Shown in pieces: positions 19,451 to 37,907 of a stretch of 64,000 nucleotides of DNA (the first letter of the stretch is position 1; every line of letters begins with the position of its first letter). Source of the DNA: Hallella bergensis DSM 17361 (GTDB lineage Bacteria > Bacteroidota > Bacteroidia > Bacteroidales > Bacteroidaceae); the NCBI RefSeq assembly GCF_000160535.1, contig NZ_GG704781.1, positions 220,154 through 284,153 on the forward strand. Reading direction: 5' to 3'. The position numbers were made by a program, and so were the translations under genes. The notes beneath the pieces are model-generated. The model was not told the origin of the DNA. It searched no databases and saw nothing but the letters and a program-made list of their open reading frames with translations.

Positions 19451-20416
19451 TTATTTCAAATAAAGCTTCTTGTATAAGGGTTTAATTCTATCTGGAGAAA
19501 AAATCTCTTTAATGGTTTTTGTATCAACTTCTGTACCTATTGTATTCTCTATTTTGTCAAGAAAATCTTGGCTGTCGTTGTAGTTGAAAATGCTGTGCCC
19601 TTTGACACCGTGTAGATAGTCGGAGATTCTTACTCTTCCCGACATGACAACAGGTGTATCTTGTCCCATTGCTTCTAAGGCCACGTAAGAAAAAGCCTCG
19701 TACTTTGACGGAATAACAACTAAGGATGCCTGTGCGTAAAGGTGTGTTAGCTCTTTGTTTGAAATGTTGACGTGCTGTATAAAATCAGGTCTTTTCTGAA
19801 GTTCTCCAGTACCAACGCAGTGCACTTCGTACTTCCCTATAGGTAGGCTATATAGAATTCCTATATTCTTTACAGGGTCATTAATTCTGCCAATGAAAAG
19901 AATCATATTCTTTTTCTTTGGTATGATTTCCTCTGTTTTTTTGGGGATGTACCAGTGGGGAATTTGGTGAACCTGTGAGTGGAACGATTGGAAGAATGCA
20001 GTGTCTTCATTATTAATAGTAACAATTTTGTCAACGCATCTTTTTACCAATGGTTTGATAATCATGTTAAAAAATATCTTTCCTAAAGTAGGATGGCATA
20101 AATATTGAAAAGGATGCCAATGTGCTGTATATATAACTTTTTTTCCAAGTTTGTGTGCATAGTACAAGGATTGAGCGGTACCCATGGCGGTATAGCCATT
20201 AATATGTACAATGTCAGCTTTTTTAATGGCATCTATCAATGTTTTTTTACGGTAATAGTATTTAAAAACTCTGGATGGGGTGACGGGATAGTCTACAATA
20301 GGATTAGCCCGAGTTTCTAAGTCATTGCAAAACATTGCATACAGTGCTTTGCAATAATTTGCTGTACCATCATTGCTTCCTTGAGGAGCTTTCCTTATGT
20401 ATATAATTTTCTTCAT
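19451..20416 (-). CDS. Glycosyltransferase family 4-type (GT-B)
   Basis: A 321-residue GT-B glycosyltransferase. HINGYTAMGTAQSLYYAHKLGKKVIYTAHWHPF marks the N-terminal Rossmann domain. FIGRINDPVKNIG and VVIPSKYEAFSYVALEAMGQDTPVV are the C-terminal donor-binding motif with the conserved Glu pair. Likely adds one sugar to the exopolysaccharide repeat unit. It lies 2 bp from the next upstream gene. From here up to about 27.8 kb the DNA is noticeably more AT-rich than the flanks. Confidence 0.85.
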   Translation of the reverse strand: MKKIIYIRKAPQGSNDGTANYCKALYAMFCNDLETRANPIVDYPVTPSRVFKYYYRKKTLIDAIKKADIVHINGYTAMGTAQSLYYAHKLGKKVIYTAHWHPFQYLCHPTLGKIFFNMIIKPLVKRCVDKIVTINNEDTAFFQSFHSQVHQIPHWYIPKKTEEIIPKKKNMILFIGRINDPVKNIGILYSLPIGKYEVHCVGTGELQKRPDFIQHVNISNKELTHLYAQASLVVIPSKYEAFSYVALEAMGQDTPVVMSGRVRISDYLHGVKGHSIFNYNDSQDFLDKIENTIGTEVDTKTIKEIFSPDRIKPLYKKLYLK

Positions 20417-20417
20417 C

Positions 20418-21686
20418 TTAATGCTTGGTTTTGTAAATTAAGAATGTGTGCAATTCTGGTCTACAGTAATTATATAGACTTTTAATGAATAAGCTATATC
20501 GCTTATACCCCATTACTCTATAGAGTAGTGAGAATAGTATGCCTATCATTCTTTTTTTCTTATCAACCCCCTCTATGTTTCTTTTGTTTAGCTTATCTAT
20601 ATTTGTAGATATGATCATTTTTTTCTTTTTGATTTGTGAGTGAAAAGTATTTTTATCTGTTGCAAAAGGATCTGCGTAACTTATGCCTGCTTCCGTCATG
20701 CCATGGTAAAGTCTACGGTGAAAAGAGGCAATACGGTCTCCATTATTATAGGTTGCATATGAATAAGGGTAGGATATATACTTATCAAAAGTTGCCTGAT
20801 GTTGGATAATCGCCTTGCAGTAAATATTGGTAGCTAAACTCAAATCGTCGTATTCCTGAAGATTTTCTATTCGTTTCCTTGAGATAATTCCTTCTTTCAT
20901 CTTTTGATAATCATATCCGGCAAAGTGGAGAAAGACTAACGCATCTTCTCTTTGAGGGTTGTCATTAGTTCGATATCTTACAAATAATTGGTTGTCTTCT
21001 CTAACGAATATTTCTCGTTCGAAAAAGTTCCAAGGAGCCATATTCATGCCTAATTCGCGAAATACATATAAATGGTCATTACCAAGGAAGCCCGGCATCC
21101 AATCCATCCACTTTTGATCAGTAAAATCGCCGATGCTCCTGTCCATGTAGGCATTGCTCATGAGTCGAACACGCCACCAGTTTAGTATGTTAGCTGTGAG
21201 TTTGGTAGACCTCATTCCACAAAAGCCAAGATTGAAAATGCCATTTACATTCATAGCCCATTCTGGGTGCTCTCCTGTGTAGTTAATATGGATACCTGCA
21301 ATCTGTGGAGTAAGGGTTATATCATAGTTGACAAGTTTGTCAAAAATATTGGTGAGTGGAGAAAATACATAGATGTCTGGGTCAAAATATACAACTGCAT
21401 CATACCCTTTGTCAAATAGATGTTGGAAGCACCCTGGCTTTATAGATGTGCAGAACTCTGTCAAGTCATATTTGAAAGACATATCAGTCCATTCAGAATC
21501 CGTATATTCCAAACATTTTTTTGCTATAATTATATTGCTTTTTAAGTCGTTAGGCATGACCGTGAATTCATCTGCAACAAAGATATAAAAATCTATATCA
21601 TCGTGATGATCTCTGACAGACTGTTCTAAAATCTGTCCTAAGCCAATATAATTTTTGGCAACAATAGTAAAAATGCATTTGTTCAT
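20418..21686 (-). CDS. GT-A glycosyltransferase with FDPD metal motif
   Basis: A 422-residue protein. The N-terminal 250 residues look like a GT-A nucleotide-diphospho-sugar transferase: YDAVVYFDPDIYVFSPL with Asp102/Asp104 as a DxD metal site, and later FLHFAGYDYQKM. GT8-like enzymes have this layout, but family assignment is uncertain. The C-terminal 120 residues are basic and hydrophobic patches suggest membrane contact. It lies within the exopolysaccharide operon and probably adds a sugar to the lipid-linked unit. Confidence 0.7.
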   Translation of the reverse strand: MNKCIFTIVAKNYIGLGQILEQSVRDHHDDIDFYIFVADEFTVMPNDLKSNIIIAKKCLEYTDSEWTDMSFKYDLTEFCTSIKPGCFQHLFDKGYDAVVYFDPDIYVFSPLTNIFDKLVNYDITLTPQIAGIHINYTGEHPEWAMNVNGIFNLGFCGMRSTKLTANILNWWRVRLMSNAYMDRSIGDFTDQKWMDWMPGFLGNDHLYVFRELGMNMAPWNFFEREIFVREDNQLFVRYRTNDNPQREDALVFLHFAGYDYQKMKEGIISRKRIENLQEYDDLSLATNIYCKAIIQHQATFDKYISYPYSYATYNNGDRIASFHRRLYHGMTEAGISYADPFATDKNTFHSQIKKKKMIISTNIDKLNKRNIEGVDKKKRMIGILFSLLYRVMGYKRYSLFIKSLYNYCRPELHTFLIYKTKH

Positions 21687-21699
21687 TGTAATATCCTGT

Positions 21700-22554
21700 T
21701 TATATTTTTGCAGATATCCCCTCCTTAATTCCTTGACAGATAGCCTTTAATTTCTCTTTTTTATTGTTTTCTATAAGTAGTACGCCTTTTATGGTAAACC
21801 CCAGTACATAAAGGTATAGTATATGTATTAGAATATCTAATGGATAGTTATATTTTCTATAGATGATAATGTGGTTTTTGAATATTTCACGCAGCCTGTT
21901 TGGCGAATACCCGGAACTGTGAATTGTCTTTCCAAGAATCCTTTTGCTTTGTGGTATTCCATATATTTGAGTTAAATATGCTCCTCTATATAATAATGAT
22001 TTGTAGTTATATTTTCGTGCTTTTACACATAGGTCAATGTCTATTCCGTCTACAAAAAAATCTTCACAGTATCCGCCAACTTTATCTAATAGTTCTATTG
22101 GAACAAGCATTCCAGAGGTTATAATATGTTTTTTCTCTATAAAATCATCATAGGTCTTACATGTTGTTTTAGGTGTGCATATGGGGCCACAAATACATTG
22201 GTGTCCTTTATACCAAAGGTCTATAACCTTATTTTTAAAAACAGGAAAATTATAAAAAACAGAGTCTTGATCCATAGTTAGAATAGTGTTATACCCATAT
22301 TCTTTGGCAAATGACCATCCGTAATTTAATGCAACAGATATGCCCATGTTCTCATTTTGATGCATAACTATGATTTTTGAAGAGGTCTCAGCCAATTGAT
22401 TAATTCGCAAAGTCGTCATAGTATTGCTACTGTTATTCCATAATATTATTTTATTTACGTGCTGTTGGAATGCAGATATATTTTTATAGAGAAGTTTAAT
22501 ATCCGGATTATATAAAACAACAATAGCTAATATTTTAACATCCATATTTTCCAT
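21700..22554 (-). CDS. Glycosyltransferase family 2, rhamnosyltransferase-like
   Basis: A GT2 enzyme of 284 residues if begun at the ATG at 22554 (MENMDVKILAIVVLYNPD), 4 bp after the flippase stop. The frame is open further upstream, but that part overlaps the flippase gene. Motifs: VVLYNPD, ILWNNSSN, ENMGISVALNYGW, TMDQDSVF (metal site) and EDFFVDGIDIDLCVKAR, which together resemble bacterial rhamnosyltransferase-type GT2 proteins. The acceptor and donor are unknown. Confidence 0.85.
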   Translation of the reverse strand: MENMDVKILAIVVLYNPDIKLLYKNISAFQQHVNKIILWNNSSNTMTTLRINQLAETSSKIIVMHQNENMGISVALNYGWSFAKEYGYNTILTMDQDSVFYNFPVFKNKVIDLWYKGHQCICGPICTPKTTCKTYDDFIEKKHIITSGMLVPIELLDKVGGYCEDFFVDGIDIDLCVKARKYNYKSLLYRGAYLTQIYGIPQSKRILGKTIHSSGYSPNRLREIFKNHIIIYRKYNYPLDILIHILYLYVLGFTIKGVLLIENNKKEKLKAICQGIKEGISAKI

Positions 22555-22558
22555 ATTT

Positions 22559-23905
22559 TCATTTGTTCCAAAGACCATATGCGCGTTCTGATATAATATA
22601 CCTGTATTGTAGGTGATTAGTAATTGCACTAATCGAATTAACAAATATAAGTGCAGCCACAATTCCATAAACACCTAAATACTTACCTAAAAATAAAGCC
22701 ATAGGAATATAACATAAAGCTTCAATAATAGTAATGATGGTGATTAACTGAATTTTACCCATTCCGCAGATAATGTTAGAATAGCATGTACCATAAATAA
22801 TGACAAACATATAGCATGCCATGGAAATAGATAACTCTAACGGAATCTCTATAGTGTCTCCAACCCAAAAGCTATAGACAAATTGGGAAGTTATAATCAT
22901 AATAATTAGTAAAAAAGAAAGTAAAAATATTATTTTTCTCATTTTTTTTACAGCATTACTAATCCATGCAGTATCTCCTTGTGTATATGCATTAGTTGTT
23001 GCAGACCAAAGGGGAGCAGATATTAGAGTGAATATTATATTCACCATACCAAAATATCGATAGGCTATTTGGTAGGGGGTGACTTCCTTAGGCGAGAAAA
23101 GTCGTGATATTAATATATTGGATGACGCAAAAATAACCATGCCAGATATTTGGGCCAGGAAAAATTTTATTCCTAACCCAAATAAGGGCTTGAGTTCTTT
23201 GTAGTCAAACAGCCTAATGGATGGTGTGAGATATTTGTATTTAGTAAATGTAATAGGGTACGAAAAGAGATACACTATCAGTGGAGAAATCGTATAGATA
23301 ACAGCAACATGGAACAGAGTTGCATTACCTAATCTTGAAATAGTATATATGAGAAACAATGAAATAGTATGTCCAATTCCAATTAATAAATTGGTTATTG
23401 CAGGCAATTGAAGAGCCATGTATATATTTCCGATGAATTTAAATATAAATGTAATAGCTACAATGGTATATGATGCAATTAAAATATATTCTAAATTATG
23501 CGTTAATTGTGGATCAACATTGAATAACTTATAACAGTTTATTTTATGTACTATACTTGTAAATATGGGTATAGTCGGTAATATTATGCATACAAGCATG
23601 AAGAAAGCTGTACTTACTTGCTGTTGACCCTTTTTAAGATCATTCTTAGCAATGGACTCGGCAAGAAGATTTCTTAGCCCATTTCCCAAGCCAATATCAA
23701 AAGAGTCTATCCAAATGAGCAGACTGCTGATAGTAAGCCATATCCCATATTCGTACTGGTTCAAGCAGTCGAGAGTGACAGGAACCAATATCAGCTGAAC
23801 AAGACAGGTCCATCCTTTAATGAAAAAAGAGCCAAGTATGTTCTTTTTCAACAAAACTGTGCGCTTGTTACCCTGCATATATTTATCAAAGAAGTTTTTT
23901 AGCAT
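22559..23905 (-). CDS. Wzx-type oligosaccharide flippase
   Basis: A 448-residue polytopic membrane protein with about 12 hydrophobic segments and the MATE/MOP layout of polysaccharide flippases (SFFIKGWTCLVQLILVPVTLDCLNQYEYGIW at the start, IGLGNGLRNLLAESIA in the first cytoplasmic loop). It would move the lipid-linked repeat unit from the cytoplasmic to the periplasmic side of the inner membrane. Its stop is 2 bp before the next coding start region, and the AT content is high. Confidence 0.88.
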   Translation of the reverse strand: MLKNFFDKYMQGNKRTVLLKKNILGSFFIKGWTCLVQLILVPVTLDCLNQYEYGIWLTISSLLIWIDSFDIGLGNGLRNLLAESIAKNDLKKGQQQVSTAFFMLVCIILPTIPIFTSIVHKINCYKLFNVDPQLTHNLEYILIASYTIVAITFIFKFIGNIYMALQLPAITNLLIGIGHTISLFLIYTISRLGNATLFHVAVIYTISPLIVYLFSYPITFTKYKYLTPSIRLFDYKELKPLFGLGIKFFLAQISGMVIFASSNILISRLFSPKEVTPYQIAYRYFGMVNIIFTLISAPLWSATTNAYTQGDTAWISNAVKKMRKIIFLLSFLLIIMIITSQFVYSFWVGDTIEIPLELSISMACYMFVIIYGTCYSNIICGMGKIQLITIITIIEALCYIPMALFLGKYLGVYGIVAALIFVNSISAITNHLQYRYIISERAYGLWNK

Positions 23906-23907
23906 AC

Positions 23908-24951
23908 TTATATGATTTGTAACAGTTCGTTGTAGAACACATTAATACAGAACATAGTTATGCCTATGAACATGACAATACATCTGGATACCCATGCTGG
24001 TTTCACGGTATAATAAATATTGGTGAATAGAATAATTTCTACAATACCATATAATTCGCTTACACGGAACGCTAACACCGGTAAAGAAGACAAAGCGACA
24101 AAAGAGAATACCGATAATCCCATCATTTTGATCATGATGGGGAAATAAAGGTTATGCCCCTTTATGAGATCATACATGTATAGTAAGTACAGGTATATTA
24201 TGATATGGACAAGGAACACCAAGTTAAAGACATTAATTTCGTCTAAAAAGCCTTGCTCTTTTAAGTCTTGATAGATTTCCAGCTTGTCTCCAATATATGG
24301 AATTGGTAATGCTGTGATGCTAACTTGCATTATGTAAGCAACGTAACCTGCTGGTACCAGCAAAGCCCATATTAATCGCTGTTGTTTTGTCATGTCTCGA
24401 TTGGTCAGAAGAAGTAATGGTATCATGAGGAGCGAAGAATAGTGGAAGAATATGGCGATCAACATCAAGATTAGGGCATGCCATCGCCTACCATCTCCAA
24501 GTGGTTTTATGGCAAGAAGCATAATGCTGGAAGCAACTCCTGCTCTTATTTGTGTAAATTCATGCAGTATAAAATAGTTGCCCATGTATATCACCAGTGC
24601 TAAAAACACCAAGGGCGTTAGCTTCTTGAGAGCAGCAAACTTGATAGAAATACCCAAAAAGGCGTACAGTAGGAAGATACTGTGAACATCCCCAAAAATA
24701 TGATATAGCCATTTCGAAGCCAGGCGGAAAGAATATTCTACAACCTTCTCGTAGACTGGGGTGTCATAATGTAGAAAATATTGCTCATAAGCTTCGGCAT
24801 CATTATCCATACCCAAAGGTCGGAATCCTGTAAGGAATATCAATAAGAGTCCCAAACCTATATATATATACCATTTTGACTTGCCCAGTCTCTCTTCAAA
24901 GAAAGCAAAGATACAGGTAAGTAACAGTATTATGATTATTGATGTTATCAC
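23908..24951 (-). CDS. EpsG/Wzy-like polysaccharide polymerase
   Basis: A 347-residue integral membrane protein with about 9-10 hydrophobic segments. TGFRPLGMDNDAEAYEQYF near the N-terminus is the conserved R-x-x-x-x-D-x-x-x-Y-x-x-Y feature of EpsG-type proteins, and FTQIRAGVASSIMLLAI matches the central motif. In this position, beside Wzx and Wzz, it is the likely polymerase that joins repeat units in the periplasm. Confidence 0.8.
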   Translation of the reverse strand: MITSIIIILLLTCIFAFFEERLGKSKWYIYIGLGLLLIFLTGFRPLGMDNDAEAYEQYFLHYDTPVYEKVVEYSFRLASKWLYHIFGDVHSIFLLYAFLGISIKFAALKKLTPLVFLALVIYMGNYFILHEFTQIRAGVASSIMLLAIKPLGDGRRWHALILMLIAIFFHYSSLLMIPLLLLTNRDMTKQQRLIWALLVPAGYVAYIMQVSITALPIPYIGDKLEIYQDLKEQGFLDEINVFNLVFLVHIIIYLYLLYMYDLIKGHNLYFPIMIKMMGLSVFSFVALSSLPVLAFRVSELYGIVEIILFTNIYYTVKPAWVSRCIVMFIGITMFCINVFYNELLQII

Positions 24952-24974
24952 GTCTGATGCTTGTGGAGATGGTA

Positions 24975-26015
24975 TTATGCGTCTTTTTGGAAAACATACA
25001 GTGAGGTTCCGATGAAAGTCAGCAGCAAAACGAATGCTACTATAATCATGCGTTTGGGACCTGTTGGCTTGATGGGAACGGATGCCGATTGCAATGTAGT
25101 AAATGCAGGTGTCTTTTCTTGAACTTTTGCTTGGGCTGCAGTATATTGCATTGCTAATGCAGTGTAGTTGTTATATCGTAGTTGCATATCATTTTCCAAG
25201 TCTTCTTGCTTCAGTTTGTAAGATTGGAGTAGCAAATCCATGTTGGCATCTCCGTAAGCTCCGTATTTTTGCCGTGCTTTTTCATACAGGCTTTTAGCCT
25301 CAATATAAAGTCCCTTGACATAGGCCAAATCGTTGCGTGCCTTTTGTGTTCTGTAGTTTGTGATAAAAGTTTGAAGGCGAGAACTTACTGAGTCTGCGAT
25401 GGTTGCTGCAACCAAAGGGTCTTGGTCTTCAACGTCAATGGATATAACATTAGTTTTTTTGTCTACCGCACATTTCACATTTTCCCCAATAATCCCTGCA
25501 ATATCATGCTGACGTTTCGACAAGAGGAATGGTGATACTTTTTTTTCGCCATTATAAGTAGACTTTTCTTCCTTTTTTAATATTTCAGATATTTTGCCCC
25601 TGATGACAGCCCACCAAGGGCTTTTCCGATGACGTTCAAGGTAGGTGTAGTAATTGTCTTCAAAACGATTATCTTGGGTTTTGATTTGCACGGGAAAAAG
25701 ACTTACTCGAAAATCTATTGAACTCATCAGGTCTGGATAAAGTTCAGGAGATATTGCATCTAAGTTGTGTCCCATTTTGCCTGTGATATCTATGCCGACT
25801 GAGGATGCAAGGCTGCCCAGGTTTCCTAAGTTGGTATTAGCGGTTTCCGGAGCCAGCTTTACTTGGCAGTTGTAGTATCTTGGAATACTCAGTACATAAA
25901 AACAACCTAATACAAATGCAATAGGCAATGTTATCAAGTATATTTTCTTATGCTTCCAAATAGATTGTGCAATCTTTGTCAAGTCAATGGGGTTAATGTC
26001 TTTTTTTTCCGGCAT
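24975..26015 (-). CDS. Wzz-type chain length determinant protein
   Basis: A 346-residue inner-membrane protein: a cytoplasmic N-terminus, a first TM (IYLITLPIAFVLGCFYVLS), a long periplasmic region with coiled-coil-like helices (about 200-300), the PIKPTGPKR proline motif and a second TM at the C-terminus. It controls the length of the polymer made by Wzy. No kinase domain is attached, unlike Wzc proteins. Confidence 0.88.
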   Translation of the reverse strand: MPEKKDINPIDLTKIAQSIWKHKKIYLITLPIAFVLGCFYVLSIPRYYNCQVKLAPETANTNLGNLGSLASSVGIDITGKMGHNLDAISPELYPDLMSSIDFRVSLFPVQIKTQDNRFEDNYYTYLERHRKSPWWAVIRGKISEILKKEEKSTYNGEKKVSPFLLSKRQHDIAGIIGENVKCAVDKKTNVISIDVEDQDPLVAATIADSVSSRLQTFITNYRTQKARNDLAYVKGLYIEAKSLYEKARQKYGAYGDANMDLLLQSYKLKQEDLENDMQLRYNNYTALAMQYTAAQAKVQEKTPAFTTLQSASVPIKPTGPKRMIIVAFVLLLTFIGTSLYVFQKDA

Positions 26016-26085
26016 GATTTATATATTTTCTAAGAACAAGAGTAATAATAGTAACAAATAAGAGAATTGACAAAGCTATAGCCAG

Positions 26086-27798
26086 TCATATATATCCTTG
26101 TTTATTTATAAAATCCTCAGCACTTATAGCTTCATTGATATATGGTCGCTCCTCTTTCATTATTTGTAAAAGTCGTGCATAGGTTCCGTCTGTAAACGAT
26201 TTGACTCTATTGCGTACAAACTTTAGATATAGTATTTGTAAGTCTACCATCTTAACCCTATGCTTTATCTTCTTATTTTCAGATTGTGCGTAGGCTGTCT
26301 GTATTAATGGTTCTGCGTCTGATATGAATTTGTCAGTAAATATTTTATTAGTTCCTTTAATATGGCAACCCATGTGGGTGTCCTGTTTTACCAAGTCTTG
26401 GCATAGATCGTAGTATTTTCTTATGGATGGTGCAGCCTTGCCATAATATCCACATATGAAGTCATTCACCAAACTGTCAGTGTTCAGTTCAGAATTCCAC
26501 AAGAGTTTGGAGAGAACCCAAGCTTTCATTTCCGAGAACTCGCCGTCGCCCGATGTGTATTGGCCTGACTCCAGTACTGCAACCGACTTGTTCTTTACAA
26601 AGGTCTGTATATTAGGTTTTAGCACTCCAAAATTAGGAAAGGGTATTAGATATTGGTTAAAATTAACTACATAGTCCCATATAAAAATATTGTCTGTTAG
26701 TGCCATCCAGTCTTTATAATCTTTTATAAAGGACTGGTTTGGGGGACACGACTCTATGGGGTGAGCAAAGCAACATTCAATAGAACACAACCGAATCAAT
26801 ACGTTGGCTCTGGGTTTGATGTTCTTTGGAGCATGGCGTGTGTATTGATAAGCAAATGTTCCGATAGTGATGTGTGGAAACTTAGCAGCCACCTGGTTTA
26901 CAAACCAAATCCATATACCAGAGTGGCCACCGTATTGTGCCTCAATCTTTTTACAATTATTGCATTCGCAGTATAATAGATTGTCGTTTTGGGAAACATC
27001 ATATCCCCAGTAGTTTATAACAGGGTTAATCTTCGTTTTCAGGTTTGCAACTACTGTATTTAATACCTCTGGATTGGAAAGGCATAGTTGGCTATGGGGT
27101 ATCCTTCTACCTTTTCTGTAACTAAAGTATTCTGGATGTGTTTCAAAATATTTTTTTGTAGGAATCAGCCATTCTGATGTATGTATACCCCAATAGTTAT
27201 ACAATTCCCCATATTTGGTAGGCGCTGCATCCCACACCATGTTCATCTTATTACGGGCATATAGCGCAGAGTCTGTGTGAAAGTGCTTAAACTCTACGTA
27301 CCTGTATTTAATAGAAGGTTTTTCGGTATGGTTTAAATCAGGCAAGATATACTGCTGTATGGTTGGGACTTTCGTCACCTCATGGGTGTACCACCTTACT
27401 CCAAGTTCGTTTTCGAGGAAAGCATACACCCCATACATTGTGCCTCGCTGACTTCCTCCGTAGATATATAAGTTGTCACCTTCCGTTTTATAGGTAAAAC
27501 TATCATCGTCTGCATCGGGCTTAGTCTTAGAGGTGTATTTGGCGATGCTGGGATGGTAGCCTATGAATATGTTGTTTTTTTTGGCGGCTCTGTCAGGTGA
27601 TACAATTAAAATGTCGGCACCGCTTATCTGTTTCAGATATATACGAAGGTCTTCTGCGGCGGTATGCTCTGAAACGGAAGCATTTTGGAATAGTATTATC
27701 TTATAATCACTTTTTTGGTTTTTAAACAGGCTTGTTGCTTGAGCGCATCCTCCATATATCATCGCTAAGACTGTAATAATACATCCTATATGTTTCAT
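26086..27798 (-). CDS. DUF4838 protein, glycoside-hydrolase-like, exported
   Basis: A 570-residue protein with a signal or lipoprotein-type leader (MKHIGCIITVLAMIYGGCAQ; the Cys could be lipidated). The N-terminal 110 residues resemble the alpha/beta domain found before GH20/GH67-type barrels (EHTAAEDLRIYLKQISGADI, YGGSQRGTMYGVYAFLENELGVRWY). The DUF4838 core follows with SQNDNLLYCECNNCKKIEAQYGGHSGIWIWFVN. It sits between the SLBB exporter and Wzz genes, so it may trim, cleave or modify the exopolysaccharide outside the cytoplasm. Catalytic activity is not demonstrated for this family as far as I know. Confidence 0.78.
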   Translation of the reverse strand: MKHIGCIITVLAMIYGGCAQATSLFKNQKSDYKIILFQNASVSEHTAAEDLRIYLKQISGADILIVSPDRAAKKNNIFIGYHPSIAKYTSKTKPDADDDSFTYKTEGDNLYIYGGSQRGTMYGVYAFLENELGVRWYTHEVTKVPTIQQYILPDLNHTEKPSIKYRYVEFKHFHTDSALYARNKMNMVWDAAPTKYGELYNYWGIHTSEWLIPTKKYFETHPEYFSYRKGRRIPHSQLCLSNPEVLNTVVANLKTKINPVINYWGYDVSQNDNLLYCECNNCKKIEAQYGGHSGIWIWFVNQVAAKFPHITIGTFAYQYTRHAPKNIKPRANVLIRLCSIECCFAHPIESCPPNQSFIKDYKDWMALTDNIFIWDYVVNFNQYLIPFPNFGVLKPNIQTFVKNKSVAVLESGQYTSGDGEFSEMKAWVLSKLLWNSELNTDSLVNDFICGYYGKAAPSIRKYYDLCQDLVKQDTHMGCHIKGTNKIFTDKFISDAEPLIQTAYAQSENKKIKHRVKMVDLQILYLKFVRNRVKSFTDGTYARLLQIMKEERPYINEAISAEDFINKQGYI

Positions 27799-27836
27799 GC
27801 CTGTATTTCCCTCCTTAAATCTAAATATGAGAACAA

Positions 27837-30431
27837 TTATTTTGCTATATTCGCTATCGTTGCAATCATTGCGGCGATGCTGGCCATGCCAGTGCCAAGG
27901 CTCATGGTTTCGGCAATACTCATTTTGCGAGATAGCTTACTCGGAACCACAATTTCGCAGCCCGGCTCTATCTTTGCACCTTGGCTCACTTTGCCAACCA
28001 TGCCGTTCATGTAGATAATGTATGCCTTGCTCTTGCGTGCGTTCTGTGCAAAACCGCCGGCTGTGTTGATGTAGTATCTTGCTCGTTTCCCCTTTTCGTA
28101 GGCTACAGTGTTGGGATACATCACGGCGCCGTTGATTTTAACCGTTGCGGTGTATTGTGGCAGGATGAGCCGGTCGCCGGCGCGCAATACAATGTTAGCA
28201 TCGCTTCCTGGGTCTTGGAGTGCTTTGTCAAGCTCAATGCCCACGGGGAACGTGCTGGGTATTTCGAATTTCTGCAACTGTGTGTTCGATGCCTGTTGGC
28301 TCATTTGCTGAATATTCCCGGCATTGTTGCTGCTTGCAGCCAGTTGGAGCAACTGTTGTTGCAGTTGTTCTTGCTGCATCTTCAGGGCTGCCTGCATACG
28401 GGCACGTTCCACCTCGTTGGGCACGCGCTCCAGTCGGGCACCCTTGATATAGGCCATGTCGGTCACACCACCGGCTGCCTTCAACAGATCGGTCAGGCGA
28501 GCGTTGCGTTTGTTTAGGGTGTATGTGCCACCAAACATCACCTCGCCCTCTATTGTAACATTTTGTTGCTCAGAATAAGCCGGGCTTTTACGCACATAAA
28601 CCTGATCGAACGGCATCAGCACGAAACCTTGCTCGCCGTCAATCACAAAACCGTCTTTCAGGGCAAAGCTATAAGTTTGGGCTATAATGCTATCGGTAGT
28701 CATGGCTTGGGGATTACTCACCCTGCGAGCCACATCCACTTTGACAGTCGATGCAGTCTCTTTCAGTCCGCCGGCCTGGAGCACGAAGTCTTCCAGGGTT
28801 TCGTTGTCTGCATATTTATAGATGCCGGGATATTGCACCTCGCCATGAATCGTGAGAGTGCGCTCCGTCATGGCCTCCTGCTTGCTCGGAATGAAGAGTA
28901 CATCGTTTTCTTTCAATGGGATGTCGGCCACATGACCGGTCATAATACCCTGCACGTCAACACTCACCACTTTCAGCGTTCGGTCGCTCTTCATGCGGTG
29001 CATCACTGCGCGGTTGGTGAAGGCTTCCTCAGTGAGTCCTTCAGCATGTTCGATGAGTGTGCGCACGCTATTGACGCCCCCTCCCAGCTGATACATGCCC
29101 GGCCGGAAGACGGCTCCCTTGATTTCCACGGTGTTCTGATAGCGTGGCAGGATGGAGTCCACACTCACGCTGTCGCCATCGGCTATGCGAAAGCTGCTCA
29201 TGTCGAATTCCTCAACGTTGAACACGGCATACTCGCGACCTGTCTTGCGGTTCACCCGCACGGCTTTGGTATAGGCGTCTCCGGCAAATCCTCCGGCATA
29301 TTTCAGCAGACTCTCGAGACTCTCGTTCTTCTTCATCTCGTAGAACATGGGACGCTTCACCTTGCCCGTGATATTCACCAGGCAGTCGTAGGGACCCACG
29401 ATAATCACGTCGCCGTCGGTTAGGCGTACGTTGCCAGTCATTTTGCCATTGAGGATATAGTCGTAGATATCGCACACGCTCACCAGCTTGTTATGACGAT
29501 ATATCTTGATGTTGCGCAACGTACCCATGTTGTTTGTTCCGCCGGCCATATACAGAGCATGGAACACACTGGCAAAGGCCGACAGCGTATAGGTGCCCGG
29601 TGCTTTCACCTCACCCATCACATTGATGGAGATGGTACGTGTTTGCCCGAGCGAAATCTTAATCTGGCTGCTCTGGTATCTGGTTCCAAGTCGGCTGCGT
29701 ATGCGGGCATTGGCCTGAGCCACGGTGAGTCCACTCACTTGAATTGGGCCATAGTTTTCGATAATGATGTCACCATCGGGCGACACCGAACTTTCTATGG
29801 TTTTCTGCGAGGCACCGTAGATGTCGATAATCACCGCATCCCCGGGACCGAGGCGGTAGTTCTGCGGCGTGGCAATGTTCATGGCAGGCTCAAACGTCAG
29901 GTTTTTGTTATTGAAAATGTCGCGGCCGAATACCTTTGTTTTTTCTTTTTTCTGATTCTCCAACATCACCTTCAGCATTTCCAAGGAGTCGGCTGGTGTC
30001 ATCAATCCCAGCTCAGTTTGCATCTGCAAAAAATCGGAGCTGTTCTCATCGTATTCGTTTTTCCATTCCGGGTTCCCCTGTATGCGCTGTGAGGTTGTGG
30101 CGGCACGCCTTTGCTCAGCTTGCTTGGTTTCCTCCTTGTCTTGAGGCTTGACATTGTTACTGCGCAGCCGGCTGTTGGCCTTGGTTTTTTGGTCCACGTT
30201 GCCTAAGCCAGAACCCTTTGCCTGCCGCTCATACTTCTTCCTCACCCGGCGAATCTGTGCAATGTCAACGCCGTTTTGCATCAACTTGGTCACGATCTGG
30301 GCTTGTGAAGTTCCCCTTTCCACTTCTTTCTGTACGAATTCTGCGACCTGAGAATCTGTCATGGAACTCTGAGCCCAGATGCCAGAAGGGCATAGGGTCG
30401 CCAACATGATGCCTATAATGAGTTTCTTCAT
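27837..30431 (-). CDS. SLBB-domain polysaccharide export protein (Wza-like, long form)
   Basis: An 864-residue exported protein, much longer than Wza (about 380). It has a Sec signal (cleavage near GIWAQ), then a charged helical region, the Poly_export domain (NYRLGPGDAVIIDIYG, VSPDGDIIIENYGPIQVSGLT) at about 190-280, and some five to six repeated SLBB domains (each with an IxGEVxxPGxY core). A C-terminal hydrophobic segment is ETMSLGTGMASIAAMIATIAN. It would form the outer-membrane exit channel for the polymer. It is the first gene of the exopolysaccharide operon, 70 bp after a near-consensus promoter. Confidence 0.88.
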   Translation of the reverse strand: MKKLIIGIMLATLCPSGIWAQSSMTDSQVAEFVQKEVERGTSQAQIVTKLMQNGVDIAQIRRVRKKYERQAKGSGLGNVDQKTKANSRLRSNNVKPQDKEETKQAEQRRAATTSQRIQGNPEWKNEYDENSSDFLQMQTELGLMTPADSLEMLKVMLENQKKEKTKVFGRDIFNNKNLTFEPAMNIATPQNYRLGPGDAVIIDIYGASQKTIESSVSPDGDIIIENYGPIQVSGLTVAQANARIRSRLGTRYQSSQIKISLGQTRTISINVMGEVKAPGTYTLSAFASVFHALYMAGGTNNMGTLRNIKIYRHNKLVSVCDIYDYILNGKMTGNVRLTDGDVIIVGPYDCLVNITGKVKRPMFYEMKKNESLESLLKYAGGFAGDAYTKAVRVNRKTGREYAVFNVEEFDMSSFRIADGDSVSVDSILPRYQNTVEIKGAVFRPGMYQLGGGVNSVRTLIEHAEGLTEEAFTNRAVMHRMKSDRTLKVVSVDVQGIMTGHVADIPLKENDVLFIPSKQEAMTERTLTIHGEVQYPGIYKYADNETLEDFVLQAGGLKETASTVKVDVARRVSNPQAMTTDSIIAQTYSFALKDGFVIDGEQGFVLMPFDQVYVRKSPAYSEQQNVTIEGEVMFGGTYTLNKRNARLTDLLKAAGGVTDMAYIKGARLERVPNEVERARMQAALKMQQEQLQQQLLQLAASSNNAGNIQQMSQQASNTQLQKFEIPSTFPVGIELDKALQDPGSDANIVLRAGDRLILPQYTATVKINGAVMYPNTVAYEKGKRARYYINTAGGFAQNARKSKAYIIYMNGMVGKVSQGAKIEPGCEIVVPSKLSRKMSIAETMSLGTGMASIAAMIATIANIAK

Positions 30432-32351: not shown

Positions 32352-32420
32352 CCCACGACTATCTGCTCATGTTGTGAAGAGTCGTGTCAGTCGTTGCGGA
32401 AAATTGTGCATGACCATCGC

Positions 32421-32516
32421 GCAGCCTAATTTTGAATTTTGAATTTTGAATTATGAATTGTGAATTGCAACCCGCGTCAGCCTAATTTTGAATTATGAAT
32501 TATGAATTTTGAATTG
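32421..32516. repeat. AT-rich TTTTGAA/TTATGAA microsatellite in two blocks
   Basis: Two blocks begin with the same CAGCCTAATTTTGAATT (32422 and 32477, 55 bp apart). Each continues as runs of a 7-9 bp unit (TTTTGAA, TTATGAA, TTGTGAA). The second block runs into the 3' end of pdxT and encodes its last residues. Slippage-prone DNA. Confidence 0.75.
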
Positions 32517-33059
32517 AACTCTGCAGATGTCTACAAAATACTCGTGTATGCGGGTGTCTTCCCCCAGCTCGGGGTGAAAGGCGGTAACTAACTGGTTGCC
32601 TTGTTTAGCGGCAACGATGTGCCCGTCTATGATAGCAAGTGCTTCGCAGCCTTCGCCCACCTTTTCAATATAAGGCGCACGAATAAACACCATATCCACC
32701 TTGCCGACACCCTTCATTTCCTCGTTGGCAACGAAACTGCCCAGCTGACGGCCGTAGGCATTACGCTTCACGGTAATGTTCATGGTGCCAAGGTGGTTGT
32801 GGTCGAGCATAATGAGTCCGGCACAAGTGCCAAACACGGGCAGCCCTTTCTTGATAGCTTCCCTGATAGGAGAGCAGAGGTCAAGATCTTGTACGAGACG
32901 CATCATGGTTGTGCTTTCGCCACCTGGAATAATCAAGCCGTCTTTGGGTTGTGCCCAATCTTCCACATTACGTACCAAAAACGAGTCTACACCCATACGG
33001 GCAAGCATTTGCCGATGTTCGGCAAATGCTCCCTGCAATGCTAAAATGGCTATTCTCAT
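32493..33059 (-). CDS. pdxT: Pyridoxal 5'-phosphate synthase glutaminase subunit
   Basis: The glutaminase of the two-subunit PLP synthase. It releases ammonia from glutamine and channels it to PdxS. It has 188 residues with the class I amidotransferase triad: Cys79 in GTCAGL, His162 and Glu164 in HPE; GGES (47-50) forms the oxyanion loop. It overlaps the pdxS stop by 4 bp (ATGA). The last residues (about FKIHNS) are encoded by the AT-rich repeat at 32484-32516, so the extreme C-terminus differs from what the ancestral gene probably had. Confidence 0.96.
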
Positions 33060-33928
33060 TTGCCACGCTCTGCCATGAGAAGTTCTATTTCGCTCTCGTT
33101 GATGCCCACCATGGCCTCGCCAAGGTCTTCGCTCAGTTCGGCGAGCATCTCGGGTTTGTCATAGTTGGTCACGGCCTTCACTATGGCCTGTGCGCGCTTC
33201 TCGGGGTTGCCGCTCTTGAAGATGCCACTACCCACAAACACACCCTCAGCTCCAAGCTGCATCATCAGGGCGGCATCGGCTGGGGTGGCCACACCTCCGG
33301 CTGCAAAATTCACTACGGGCAGTTTGCCGTTCTCGTGTACATACTCCACCAAGTCGTAGGGCACACGCAGTTGTTTGGCAGCCTCGTAAAGTTCGTCGGC
33401 ACTCATCGATGTCAGTCGGCGCATCTCACTCTGCATCATGCGCATGTGGCGCACAGCCTGTATCACGTCGCCCGTGCCCGGCTCGCCCTTGGTGCGAATC
33501 ATCGTGGCACCCTCGTTGATGCGGCGAAGCGCTTCGCCGAGGTCTTTGGCACCACAAACGAAAGGTACCTTGAACTGGCGTTTGTCGATGTGATACACAT
33601 CGTCGGCCGGCGAAAGCACCTCACTCTCGTCGATATAGTCTATCTCAATGGCCTCCAAGATTTGTGCTTCCACAAAGTGGCCGATGCGACATTTGGCCAT
33701 CACAGGAATGCTCACGGCCTCCTGAATGCCCTTGATCATCTTCGGGTCGCTCATGCGCGACACACCTCCGGCGGCACGTATGTCGGCAGGAATACGTTCC
33801 AAAGCCATAACTGCGCAAGCACCGGCGGCCTCGGCGATGCGTGCTTGTTCGGGGGTAGTTACATCCATGATTACACCGCCCTTGAGCATCTGTGCCAAGT
33901 TGCGGTTAAGAGTTGTTCTATCTTCCAT
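33056..33928 (-). CDS. pdxS: Pyridoxal 5'-phosphate synthase lyase subunit
   Basis: Makes PLP directly from ribose 5-phosphate (or ribulose 5-phosphate), glyceraldehyde 3-phosphate and ammonia supplied by PdxT. It is a 290-residue TIM barrel, the usual length. Asp22 (GGVIMDVT), the Schiff-base Lys79 ([10 protein letters not shown]) and the second Lys in [10 protein letters not shown] are present, as is the phosphate-binding [14 protein letters not shown]. It is the first gene of the pdxS-pdxT unit. Confidence 0.97.
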
Positions 33929-33961
33929 TGTCTTATTAACGATTTAAAAAATTACTGCTCA

Positions 33962-33993
33962 CAAAGCTATATATAAAAATGAGAACAACCAAG
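33962..33993 (-). promoter_or_regulatory. Promoter of pdxST
   Basis: Minus strand TAGCTTTG (33969-33962) matches the -7 consensus, with a weak CTTG 20 bp upstream. It lies in the 101-bp gap between the ThiD-AraC gene and pdxS, so pdxST can be transcribed on its own and could be the target of that regulator. Confidence 0.5.
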
Positions 33994-34029
33994 TTCTTGT
34001 TCCCAAATCGGTAAGCATTGTGCCGAAAA

Positions 34030-35118
34030 TCACAAGCGGCTCATCCGGTTGCGGTATTCCACGGGCGAACAACCTTGATGTGAGCTGAAAAACTTGCTGA
34101 ACATGGGGAGTGATGAATAGCCAAGCTTGGTGGCGACCTCACTGATGGTCAGCCTGGACGTGGCCAATAGGGTAGAGGCCTCGCGCATGATGTAGTCGGC
34201 TATAACCTGTTTGGGTGTTTTCGCAACAGTCGTGGCCGTGATGCGTGTGAGGTAACGGGGGGTGATGGCGAGACGGTCGGCATAGAACGCCACGTCGTGA
34301 GCCTCGCGATAATGCGTTGCAATGAGAGCCATGAACTGGTTGTAGAGGTCAGCTTGTCGGTGTCCTTGAACACGGCAGTCTACGGCATACACCACTTGGC
34401 TGTGTAGATAGTCGTGGGCTCGGCTGATGGCAGTTGTGATGTTGCTGCCCATGGCCAGGTGTGTGGCAATGGCTGCCGACAGTGCTCCGCCCACACCGTG
34501 TCGTTGCCACCCCTCGGTGTTTTGTGAACTGAAAAACTGATGTTTTTCCCCTGCCATCAGTACGGCGGTGAGTCGACCTTCAGTCTGGTGCCCGCCACGT
34601 ATGAGTACGGCTTGTGCTCCCATGGCGGTAAATTGTTGAGCCGCCTCCAACATCTCATCATCCGAAACAATGGGGCTGCCCAATAAGATTTCGGCTTCGT
34701 TACATCGTGTGAGCAACACAGTGGCTTCGGGAATGAGTTCTTGTTTCCAAGCTCTGATGGCCTCGTTGCCAATCAGCTGTTTGCCATGAGAAGTCAGGAT
34801 TCCCGGCACCATCACTTTTTGAGGGCACCCCACAATTTCATCCTTCAAAGCCGCAATGGTGTCGGCATCGCGCACCATCCCCACTTTCACGGTTTTGGGA
34901 TGGTGGGCTTCTATGACAGCTCTTACTTGCCTAACAACGATGTCACACGGCAGGTTGAGCAAGTCGTGTATGCCCTGCCCATCCTGTACGGTCACTGTGG
35001 TAAGAGCCGTCAGAGCATAGCCGCCTAAAGCCGATATGGTCTTGATGTCGGCTTGTATTCCGGAAGCACCGGTGTTGTCAGAGCCCGTAATGCTCAAAAC
35101 GTATGGCATGAAGTTCAT
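34030..35118 (-). CDS. ThiD/PdxK-like kinase domain fused to an AraC-type DNA-binding domain
   Basis: A 362-residue fusion. Residues 4-255 are a ribokinase-fold pyrimidine/pyridoxal kinase domain (SITGSDNTGASGIQADIKT, VKVGMVRD, VLLTRCNEAEILLG, VLIRGGH). Residues 270-362 are a two-helix-turn-helix AraC domain (FYADRLAITPRYLTRI, ISEVATKLGYSSLPMFSKFF). The catalytic GTGC/GTGD anion-hole motif reads GVGG (208-211), so the Cys or Asp needed for phosphoryl transfer is missing. I infer a ligand-sensing transcription factor rather than an active kinase. It starts 10 bp after the gene at 35129-36625 and lies just upstream of pdxS, which points to control of B6 (or thiamine precursor) genes. Confidence 0.85.
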   Translation of the reverse strand: MNFMPYVLSITGSDNTGASGIQADIKTISALGGYALTALTTVTVQDGQGIHDLLNLPCDIVVRQVRAVIEAHHPKTVKVGMVRDADTIAALKDEIVGCPQKVMVPGILTSHGKQLIGNEAIRAWKQELIPEATVLLTRCNEAEILLGSPIVSDDEMLEAAQQFTAMGAQAVLIRGGHQTEGRLTAVLMAGEKHQFFSSQNTEGWQRHGVGGALSAAIATHLAMGSNITTAISRAHDYLHSQVVYAVDCRVQGHRQADLYNQFMALIATHYREAHDVAFYADRLAITPRYLTRITATTVAKTPKQVIADYIMREASTLLATSRLTISEVATKLGYSSLPMFSKFFSSHQGCSPVEYRNRMSRL

Positions 35119-35128
35119 GGGTGGCTCA

Positions 35129-36625
35129 TCAATTGAACATTTCTACGAGTTGCTTAAAACGTTTGTGAATATCCAGTTCAGAACTTTCTCTGTAAGATTG
35201 GATGGCCGGATTGCTCAGGTCACGTTTCACAGATTCCCAACTGCCACAACTCCCAATATCAACCATATTTGTAGCAAACAAATCTTTAAGGCTGGGCAAA
35301 AGTTCTCGTGCACCCATATCAACAATATAGTTCACCAAGAATCCTGCAACAGTTGCGTCACAGCAGACAGACTGGGGAAGTGCGTCTATGGTGAAAAGAA
35401 TGAGCCGGTGATACCAGTCTATTACTTCTTCACGTCGGTCGGGATTGTGAAAGTTTACTTCCTCACCAATCTTCAATACGTTTATCTTGGCATAGGTGTA
35501 AAGTCCCTCTTCTTTCAGGTAGTCCATCAATACGTCTAACTTGTGCTGCCCTAATTTATATAATGTGGGTATTACTATCTCTGGTGCAGCGTCTCCAAAA
35601 TGATAGTCATAAAAGTCGGGAGACTGCCTGAGCAATTCCAAAACAACGTCTAAACTGGTGCTGTCGTTTCCAACCTCAGCCAACATCATGGTTGCGTTAG
35701 AAACCACCCCGGTATAATTTTCTTTAAGCTCTTGTGGAATCTCATCACAGGTCAGACCTATATAATACATGATGATATTCTCCAAGTCCTTGCGCAGCGA
35801 CTCCTTGGGTAGGGCAAGCATTTCGTCAACGACCGTATCTTTCAGAGCAAGTGCGTTTTCCGGCTTAAGCAAATCCTCAAGCACCCATTGGTTTTCCACA
35901 GTCAATATCTGTGGATAGTCCGGGTGGACATAAGTATATTTCATATCCGACCCATAAGATTTGATCATGGGACTGTCGCTGAAATCCGTGTCGAATGATG
36001 TCATTTCGTCGACATCATCAAAAAAATCGGGGTCGTTCTCGTCATATTCGTCTTCATCATCTTCTGCACGGATAATGACCTCGAAGTTGTCGCCCAAATT
36101 CTTTTTCAGCGTGGGCACATATTTGTTGGCTTCTGATTTGCTGCTGGCGATAAGTAAATGTTTGCCGTCTTTTCCAAAGTCGTATTCAATGAGCGGCACA
36201 TCGTCCGTATCTTCTTCCAAAAGATATTGAGCAAGTGTAAAGCCGGGGTGGGGATTGATACCGCCCTCTTCCGCAAAGGCTATGGCACCATAAATCCAGT
36301 TGTGTGCTTCTTCATAACTACATTCCCTGGTTCTCGTTGTGGCAAACCTCTCCTTTAAGTGCTCAAATTCATATTCCTCCATACGGAGCATATAGAAGGC
36401 ATCCTTGACACCAAGACAAAATATATCCACAAGGAATACGCCCACGCTTACCTTGCCGTGCTTGTGCATGCGAGTCACAATGACATTACCTTCACCACAG
36501 GTCTCGATATCTTCACTAATATAGCATTTGCCTATCGCTAATGACCGAGCCTTCTCTTTCAGATATTTTGCGGGGGACAGAGACGGCATTTGTGTTGCCC
36601 CATTTTTCTTTTTCTTCTTTGACAT
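35129..36625 (-). CDS. Conserved hypothetical protein, acidic, HEAT-like C-terminal half
   Basis: A 498-residue cytoplasmic protein with a Lys-rich start (MSKKKKKNG), a mixed alpha/beta N-terminal half (for example VSVGVFLVDIFCLGVKDAFY), a strongly acidic linker around residues 185-215 (DDEDEYDENDPDFFDDVDE) and a helical C-terminal half whose repeats look HEAT-like. I recognise no enzyme motif. The ThiD-AraC fusion follows 10 bp downstream, so the two are probably co-transcribed, although no functional link is evident. Confidence 0.7.
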   Translation of the reverse strand: MSKKKKKNGATQMPSLSPAKYLKEKARSLAIGKCYISEDIETCGEGNVIVTRMHKHGKVSVGVFLVDIFCLGVKDAFYMLRMEEYEFEHLKERFATTRTRECSYEEAHNWIYGAIAFAEEGGINPHPGFTLAQYLLEEDTDDVPLIEYDFGKDGKHLLIASSKSEANKYVPTLKKNLGDNFEVIIRAEDDEDEYDENDPDFFDDVDEMTSFDTDFSDSPMIKSYGSDMKYTYVHPDYPQILTVENQWVLEDLLKPENALALKDTVVDEMLALPKESLRKDLENIIMYYIGLTCDEIPQELKENYTGVVSNATMMLAEVGNDSTSLDVVLELLRQSPDFYDYHFGDAAPEIVIPTLYKLGQHKLDVLMDYLKEEGLYTYAKINVLKIGEEVNFHNPDRREEVIDWYHRLILFTIDALPQSVCCDATVAGFLVNYIVDMGARELLPSLKDLFATNMVDIGSCGSWESVKRDLSNPAIQSYRESSELDIHKRFKQLVEMFN

Positions 36626-37349
36626 GATAAAAACAACGTGTTAGATGGAATCGTTAAAAAGTTGATGTAGCCAATGATTGGGCAATTCGCGATGTTCAGC
36701 AGTCTTCGTTCGACACCTCATTCATGAAATGATGGGCAAATATCGTAATTTTTTTTTAGAACCTGCAAGAAAATTACGGATATCTTGCCAAGGACCCTCT
36801 ATCTCTGGCAAGAGAAAGGATGAGCAGCTAACACCACGCGTGGGTGGTTTACAGTTGTAGGTTGTCAACGAGGTGTACAGAGGCTGATTTTGTCAAGAAA
36901 ACTATACCAAAACGGAGTCGAAAATTTTTGGCGTTCCAGAAATTGAAGAGTCCTGCCAGGATCCTAAACGCCCGATGACGGTCAGTCAAAAAAGAGACGA
37001 GAGTGCGATCAGGGTCTTGTCACACGGTGAATAAGCCTTAGTCGTGAGACGGATAAGGCTTTGCCGCCCTGCGATGAAGCTTGAATCGTGGCATGATGAG
37101 ATACCAACGGCAAGGCCTTCAGAAAACTATGAAGTGCTGATTTTTCACTCGCTCCTCTTAACTCATTGTGTTCTTAGACGTTGTAAAAAACCGGCAAATT
37201 TCGCATATTTCGCCCAATGCCTTTTCCGCTTTCAAATACGGCAAGCATTCGAGGCACTTTGTCGTGATATTTCAGAGATATTTACAGGAAGATTCAACCT
37301 GTGTGATAAAGTGAATAAACGTTATCGTCAAAAATAAAAGGCAGGGAAG
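36626..37349. other. Gene-poor stretch before the tmRNA gene
   Basis: About 720 bp with no convincing gene. Small open frames in it lack family features. Two hairpins stand out: CTTGCCA/TGGCAAG (36784-36812) and AAGCCTTA/TAAGGCTT (37033-37061), the second terminator-like. A purine-rich tract follows GTCAGTCAAAAAAGAGACGAG near 36985. It may hold a decayed gene or an unrecognised RNA. Confidence 0.4.
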
Positions 37350-37432: not shown

Positions 37433-37829
37433 GGGGTTGACTGGATTTGACAGCAGGATGAGATGGTATGTAAGCATGCGGAGCTTCGGTAGCTTGCTCC
37501 TTAATCTGAGTTATCAAAAATTTAATTGGCGAAAACAATTACGCTCTCGCTGCCTAATTGAAGAACAGTAGATTACTGGCTTAATTCCGTCACCAGGTGA
37601 TGGAACGAGACATCGCTCCGAGGATGTTGTTCCGAATCCGGAGATCAAGCGGTGCAGGTTAAATCGGAAATAGCCCGTGTAGGTCTCGATGCTCGGGTGA
37701 AATTTAGAGGCTAAGGTGATGGTTGGTGGTTCGGGTCTTGCCATTACACGAAAAACAAAGGCCGAAATAAGCATGTAGAAAGCGTATGGTTTCCCTGTTT
37801 GGACGCGGGTTCGACTCCCGCCAGCTCCA
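37433..37829 (+). ncRNA. ssrA: Transfer-messenger RNA (tmRNA)
   Basis: Rescues stalled ribosomes and tags the incomplete protein for degradation. The 5' end GGGGTTG (37433-37439) pairs with CAGCTCC (37822-37828) to form the acceptor stem; the T-arm is CGGGTTCGACTCCCG near 37806-37820, the tRNA-like hallmark. The tag reading frame is at 37528-37557 and encodes GENNYALAA followed by TAA, the Bacteroidetes tag ending in the ALAA protease signal. The CCA end is not encoded (the sequence after the discriminator A is CTA). Several paired segments between 37570 and 37720 fit the pseudoknot region. Confidence 0.95.
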
Positions 37830-37907
37830 CTACTATGTTAAGGGTTAATTTATCTTAATAGGGTAATAAAAAGTGCCGTTTACGCCCGGATGTTATACAT
37901 AAAACCT

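Follow-up and report, generated by a model that had tools for sequence, protein, structure and literature searches.

The DNA analysed here, hereafter called the window, is a stretch of 64,000 nucleotides from Hallella bergensis DSM 17361. On its minus strand lie, in this order, a gene encoding a ThiD-like domain fused to an AraC-type helix-turn-helix (HTH) domain, a 101-bp gap, pdxS, and pdxT (Table 1). The gene of a 498-aa protein (35129-36625, minus strand), with no Pfam or NCBIfam match at E 0.001, ends 10 bp before the start codon of the fusion gene on the same strand, and the two genes are possibly cotranscribed in the window. Both domains described in the earlier note on this DNA, a ThiD/PdxK-fold domain and an intact AraC HTH beside pdxST, were recovered with Pfam (PF08543 and PF12833, the latter over its full length). 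Of the double label only ThiD stands: the nearest NCBIfam and PDB relatives of the window fusion are ThiD proteins (HMP/HMP-P kinases), not PdxK, so the kinase domain is correctly called ThiD-like. The fusion scores below the curated cut-off of TIGR00097 (182.3 vs. 204.95 bits), and a separate canonical ThiD with HGTGC (L068) is encoded in the same genome and on the same contig, about 98 kb away. The window also contains a tmRNA gene (37433-37832, plus strand; RF00023, 151 bits) and a stretch of low G+C content (20001-28000; 33-39% vs. 42-52% in the other 4-kb blocks), adjoined by a polysaccharide-export-like protein recognised by eye (27837-30431); this stretch is perhaps a surface polysaccharide locus.

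Table 1. Features of the fusion-pdxS-pdxT locus, in coordinates of the window
Feature	Position	Strand	Remark
ThiD-AraC fusion, 362 aa, ATG start	34030..35118	(-)	proposed regulator of pdxST
ThiD-like domain, PF08543 Phos_pyr_kin, aa 14-248, catalytic motifs lost	34375..35079	(-)	Pfam E 2.3e-55
HTH_18, PF12833, AraC-type, aa 279-358	34045..34284	(-)	Pfam E 1.1e-17, profile 1-80 of 80, above cut-off
HGVGG replacing ThiD HGTGC, aa 207-211	34486..34500	(-)	catalytic Cys lost
pdxS, PLP synthase lyase subunit, proposed target	33056..33928	(-)	TIGR00343, 505 bits (cut-off 438)
pdxT, PLP synthase glutaminase subunit, proposed target	32493..33059	(-)	TIGR03800, 221 bits (cut-off 106)
Predicted operator and promoter; distal half-site reaches into the 3' end of the fusion gene	33959..34035	(-)	model R1 match, 32.7 bits
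Proximal 26-bp site, CTTACCGATTTGGGAACAAGAACTTG	33990..34015	(-)	extends into the -33 region
Predicted Bacteroidota-type -7 box, TAGCTTTG	33962..33969	(-)	35 bp from the site's GGGAAC

The catalytic motif of the window protein reads GVGG, as had been noted before, and other kinase motifs are altered as well: DPVM to VPGI, TPN to LTR and KGGH to RGGH, with the Glu of TPNxxE retained. An alignment was made of 37 fusions, 13 full-length and 24 others (the duplicate contig L106 was excluded, three near-duplicate pairs were retained), and seven ThiDs. The catalytic Cys of GTGC, whose survival in any fusion homologue the earlier note had named as evidence against its reading, is retained in 0/37. 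The sequence GVGG itself, the fixation of which in AraC fusions had been put up for checking, is not fixed: the position of the Cys is occupied by Gly in all 13 full-length proteins and mostly by Asn in the other 24 (Asn 22, Ser 1, Gly 1). Neither the Asn of TPN nor the Lys of KGGH is retained in any of the 37, the position of the latter being deleted in 23 of the 24 fusions that are not full-length, while the Asp of DPVM persists in 14 and the Glu of NxxE in nine. Within the substrate half, GSD Asp, QAD Asp, VTxQ Gln, VKxG Lys and HG occur in 37/37 fusions and QAD Gln in 36/37; the seven ThiDs compared all retain the Cys, Asn and Lys together with the substrate-side residues. GSD, QAD, VTxQ, VKxG and HG are taken here to line the substrate pocket, and the TPN Asn and KGGH Lys presumably serve ATP. 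This loss of motifs predicts a loss of kinase activity.

The kinase fold was described as intact in the earlier note, and the AlphaFold model agrees, giving the window protein a predicted ThiD/pyridoxal-kinase fold (pLDDT 90.6). A short fusion of the L109 type, which is devoid of the ATP-side stretch, was modelled with a pLDDT of 89.9, and this model matches ThiD structures with a TMt of 0.64-0.71 in the first eight matches, including the HMP complex 1jxi; true pyridoxal kinases (2i5b, 4c5l) lie within the ThiD superfamily in the structure comparison. In eight related pairs, one of which (the window fusion and L102) has saturated synonymous sites, the dN/dS of the kinase part is 0.02-0.18, which indicates that the domain is maintained by purifying selection and is not decaying. 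The fusions can be considered a graded record of the passage from enzyme to sensor, with a dead site in an intact fold and then the ATP-side stretch gone; in the fusions that lost this stretch the substrate half and the HTH persist. The shortest fusion seen, of 258 aa (L209:574-1350, plus strand), lacks still more of the kinase domain, and at its locus a strong operator (42.7 bits) lies between the fusion and pdxS.

The linkage to pdxST, expected in the earlier note to recur elsewhere, was found in samples of the genus, family, order and phylum, which overlap in that G000 is present in all four. About half of the sampled genus genomes carry pdxS (51/110). At E 1e-75 the fusion was detected in 48 of these 51 and in 0/59 others (Fisher p 5e-28), so all 48 genus fusions are in pdxS genomes, and 42 of them are located at most 5 kb upstream of pdxS on the same strand: 38 at less than 500 bp and four at 0.5-5 kb. 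The rest comprise two nearby convergent fusions, two more than 5 kb away and two on different contigs. Lowering the threshold to E 1e-35 changed the count to 49/51 vs. 0/59 through one fusion of 258 aa beside pdxS in G764, which E 1e-75 had missed; the other genus matches gained at E 1e-35 end at or before model position 211, like ThiD alone.

Among 151 family genomes, 26 have pdxS, and in 22 of these a fusion is immediately adjacent, upstream on the same strand in 21 cases and divergent in one; the other 125 genomes have 0 fusions (Fisher p 1e-22), a count made with the window protein at E 1e-20, which some short fusions passed narrowly, so that more may exist. Eight ORFs from family genomes (L060-L067) were rejected as AraC-only matches, not fusions, the six sequences inspected having no ThiD motif. 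The order sample (295 genomes) includes 13 genomes with pdxS and six with the fusion at E 1e-45, which adjoins pdxS in 6/6, three times divergently; one further orphan copy of the fusion is in G168. Of 296 phylum genomes three have pdxS, and the fusion was found in G000 only, i.e., nowhere outside Bacteroidales in this sample, at a threshold (E 1e-60) strict enough to miss divergent ones. A separate contig scan yielded at least ten named loci, of which 8/10 adjoin pdxST (L106 is the L090 contig again).

Three fusions of orphan type, with HGRCN or HGHCN, were not seen beside pdxS: L092:8273-9187 (minus strand), L118:4980-5906 (plus strand) and L113:4983-5927 (plus strand). In G744, the genome of L118, pdxS is found elsewhere and is preceded by the operator; the L113 fusion, perhaps an orphan, stands at the end of a contig in a MAG that gave no pdxS match. 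Within Bacteroidales, pdxST without a detected fusion occurs in 4/26 family, 7/13 order and 2/51 genus-sample genomes, which indicates that the fusion is dispensable.

The fusion and pdxST are inherited together as a cassette: the distances between fusions and those between PdxS proteins are correlated (Mantel r 0.74, 0/2000 permutations, 32 loci), and PdxS is 90.9-95.8% identical to that of the window beside full-length fusions and 82.2-89.2% beside the others. In the family sample the short fusion type is present in six other genomes of the window's genus (G056, G075, G092, G122, G136 and G150), a distribution that suggests horizontal exchange of the whole cassette. Its arrangement varies. 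In L204 and L203 (G745 and G818) the fusion is convergent and located downstream of pdxT, and the operator remains upstream of pdxS; in G788 an ATPase-like gene (L205:2833-4104, plus strand), of AAA type by eye, lies between the fusion and pdxS, which retains its operator.

A shared motif upstream of pdxS, the search for which the earlier note had proposed, exists and is present even where the fusion lies elsewhere. The search of 24 loci, three near-duplicates having been dropped beforehand, returned TTTgTCAaAAagGGAACaccaTTTTG with a log-likelihood of 415 vs. 234-243 in six Markov-shuffled controls. A -7-like box follows the motif core at 34-37 bp in 27/27 loci when the pattern is widened to T or G at the first base (26/27 if T is required), and all other offsets together gave 15 matches. 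The TTTTG end of the motif is at the position expected of a -33 box from the promoter consensus. On the 5' side of the core, self-similarity across 24 sites peaks at 21 bp (identity 0.43 vs. 0.26-0.33 for the other shifts between 14 and 26), so the candidate operator would consist of two direct half-sites 21 bp apart. Dimers of the AraC family use two direct half-sites, and the layout typical of AraC/XylS proteins, a direct repeat of this length adjoining the target promoter in fixed phasing to the -7 box, appears to be present here, as judged from sequence.

With 17.5 bits on the 26-bp matrix, the site of the window, which is located between the fusion gene and pdxS, is one of the weaker of its kind. 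The site model matches the 64-kb window twice, the second match covering the promoter half only, and the fusion gene of the window has no site of its own upstream because only 10 bp separate its start from the gene before it. In other genomes, as in most training loci, the site commonly lies ahead of the fusion gene, in operons of the order fusion-pdxS-pdxT. In 25/25 fusion genomes searched, this promoter is the top match genome-wide, but each of them had contributed a training site. Of the held-out loci with an adjacent fusion (L102-L105 and L107-L109), 6/7 have the site at E <0.01; L105 gave a weak partial match only, of 8.2 bits. Upstream of the orphan fusions themselves the site was found in L113 (30.5 bits) and in part in L092 (12.3 bits), and the model search found none upstream of the L118 fusion. 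Riboswitch control of the pdxST operon was considered and rejected, as positions 32400-36700 gave no Rfam match at E 1.

To look for a wider regulon, 15 further matches to the site model, scoring 21.6-25.7 bits and coming from 13 of the 25 fusion genomes, were picked among the matches listed. Of the genes downstream of these 15, read by eye, two are aldolase-like and belong to two genomes of one genus; others are carbamoyl-phosphate-synthase-like, dihydropteroate-synthase-like, CoA-activase-like or hypothetical, and no B6 gene was recognised. Since these genes seem unrelated, only pdxST and the fusion gene are claimed as targets.

The dependence of the site on the fusion was examined at pdxS loci outside the motif training, 11 of which have the fusion in a place other than directly upstream. 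In 10 of these 11 the site lies before pdxS. It was found in 7/7 cases with the fusion elsewhere, i.e., on another contig (L197, L212, L214), 42 and 144 kb away (L199, L201) or convergent beyond pdxT (L203, L204), and in 3/4 cases with the fusion 0.7-3.3 kb upstream on the same strand (L205, L206, L207); the fourth, L208, has no site before pdxS at E 0.05. Some of the scores are modest, 18-25 bits, with E 1.3e-4 or better. At pdxS loci of genomes without a detected fusion the site was found in 0/12 (L056-L059 and L095-L100 by matrix and model; L210 and L211). This pattern separates a site that belongs to pdxS as such from one that depends on the fusion, although in ten of the 12 controls PdxS is only 64-84% identical to that of the window, so that part of the contrast reflects relatedness; the close controls are L210 and L211 (87-89%).

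Taken together, the fusion of these Prevotella-like Bacteroidales is quite probably a ThiD-derived dedicated regulator of pdxST, an activator that senses most likely a B6 vitamer. Catalysis and the handling of ATP appear to be lost and the fold and substrate-side residues kept, so the domain would work as a small-molecule sensor. From the sequences and predicted models, the ligand of the dead kinase pocket would most likely be pyridoxal, pyridoxine or PLP. The AraC domain would bind directly to the two half-sites, probably as a dimer; at the Bacteroidota-type promoter the proximal half-site would abut and overlap the -33 box, where activators usually sit. With B6 scarce, the dimer of the apo-protein would touch RNA polymerase at -33 and activate pdxST, and activation would stop once a vitamer fills the former kinase pocket. 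The fusion's own gene would also be activated in many genomes. As for the proposal of the earlier note that an enzyme turned ligand sensor controls pdxST, the linkage, the motif loss and the site bear it out; the ligand and the direction of control are what we infer.

Two other readings keep the fusion as the regulator of pdxST and change the sign or the signal. Repression of pdxST by the fusion, with the vitamer as co-repressor, is unlikely: repressors, too, act at the -33 region that the site overlaps, but a 21-bp direct repeat with its proximal half touching -33 is the classical layout of AraC-family activators, and phasing fixed at 34-37 bp is expected more for contact with RNA polymerase than for blocking. 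Sensing of HMP or HMP-P, by which the fusion would link thiamine and B6 supply, seems less likely still. HMP comes into question as the signal because of the ThiD ancestry of the fusion: ThiD proteins come first among its neighbours in sequence and fold, and the substrate-side ThiD residues are fixed across fusions. However, the linkage found is to pdxST, the region around the operon is free of Rfam matches, and no thiamine-synthesis gene was recognised near 13 fusion loci whose neighbours were read by eye, the loci beyond these being inspected for the fusion, pdxS and pdxT only; moreover, the ThiD superfamily includes the true pyridoxal kinases mentioned above.

The remaining two readings deny the regulator or its part in the site. 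A fusion that is the neighbour of pdxST by inheritance only, the site belonging to another pdxST regulator, would fit the window, where the fusion gene starts so close behind another gene and has no upstream site of its own; this reading is very improbable in view of the site before pdxS where the fusion is in another place (10/11) and its absence where no fusion was detected (0/12), and of the sites that also precede the fusion gene in most training loci. Hardly credible is a working, divergent HMP/pyridoxal kinase that happens to carry an HTH. The strong PF08543 match and the predicted intact fold are in its favour, yet the Cys, the TPN Asn and the KGGH Lys are missing in 37/37 fusions, with the Lys position deleted in nearly all that are not full-length, and a ThiD with HGTGC is encoded separately in the genome. 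The reading as a B6-sensing activator is the one compared below with known systems.

In the literature searched, with subscription papers mostly outside its scope, no report was found of a ThiD-AraC regulator or of any regulator of pdxST in Bacteroidales. MocR-type PdxR regulons are treated in PMC5320631, PdxR is named among the regulons used in PMC6593275, and regulators are left out of PMC9997740; 'AraC' does not occur in the available parts of these three texts. According to the available part of PMC11410844, pdxT (3.43), pdxS (3.03) and a 'bifunctional HMP kinase/HMP-P kinase', PREBIDRAFT_RS05120 (2.68), are up-regulated together in P. bivia in a mixed biofilm, which would lend expression support if PREBIDRAFT_RS05120 is the fusion rather than an ordinary ThiD.

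The fusions probably constitute an undescribed family of Bacteroidales B6 regulators, in which ThiD was turned into a sensor by loss of its catalytic and ATP residues and then by deletion of part of its ATP half, and which forms a cassette with pdxST and would activate it through the 21-bp direct-repeat operator. The MocR/GntR-type PdxR of Gram-positive bacteria is similar in that the regulator is found beside pdxST and a B6 vitamer is the expected signal; in several species apo-PdxR activates pdxST, according to the part of PMC5320631 available. PdxR differs in combining a GntR winged helix with an aminotransferase-like domain that binds PLP, in contrast to the ThiD-like domain and C-terminal AraC HTH of the fusion. 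Neither a GntR HTH nor an aminotransferase-like domain is among the matches listed for the window fusion (Pfam, and the best 25 of 31 in the other profile search), in line with the earlier description of a B6 regulator different from PdxR. With ThiD and with the ThiD2/PdxK of Bacillus and Staphylococcus the fusion shares the fold and the substrate-side motifs; it differs by loss or deletion of the catalytic Cys and of residues on the ATP side, by the added HTH and by the linkage to pdxST. AraC itself resembles it in the domain of two HTHs and in direct half-sites about 21 bp apart by the promoter, the I1-I2 spacing of AraC being about 21 bp, but the sensor domain of AraC is a cupin, whereas that of the fusion is a dead vitamin kinase. 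Reuse of an enzyme domain as the metabolite sensor of a DNA-binding protein is known from BirA and the ROK repressors, with a different enzyme, HTH, ligand class and phylum. The fusion would join these as an enzyme-derived vitamin sensor, its pairing of enzyme and HTH apparently new for B6.
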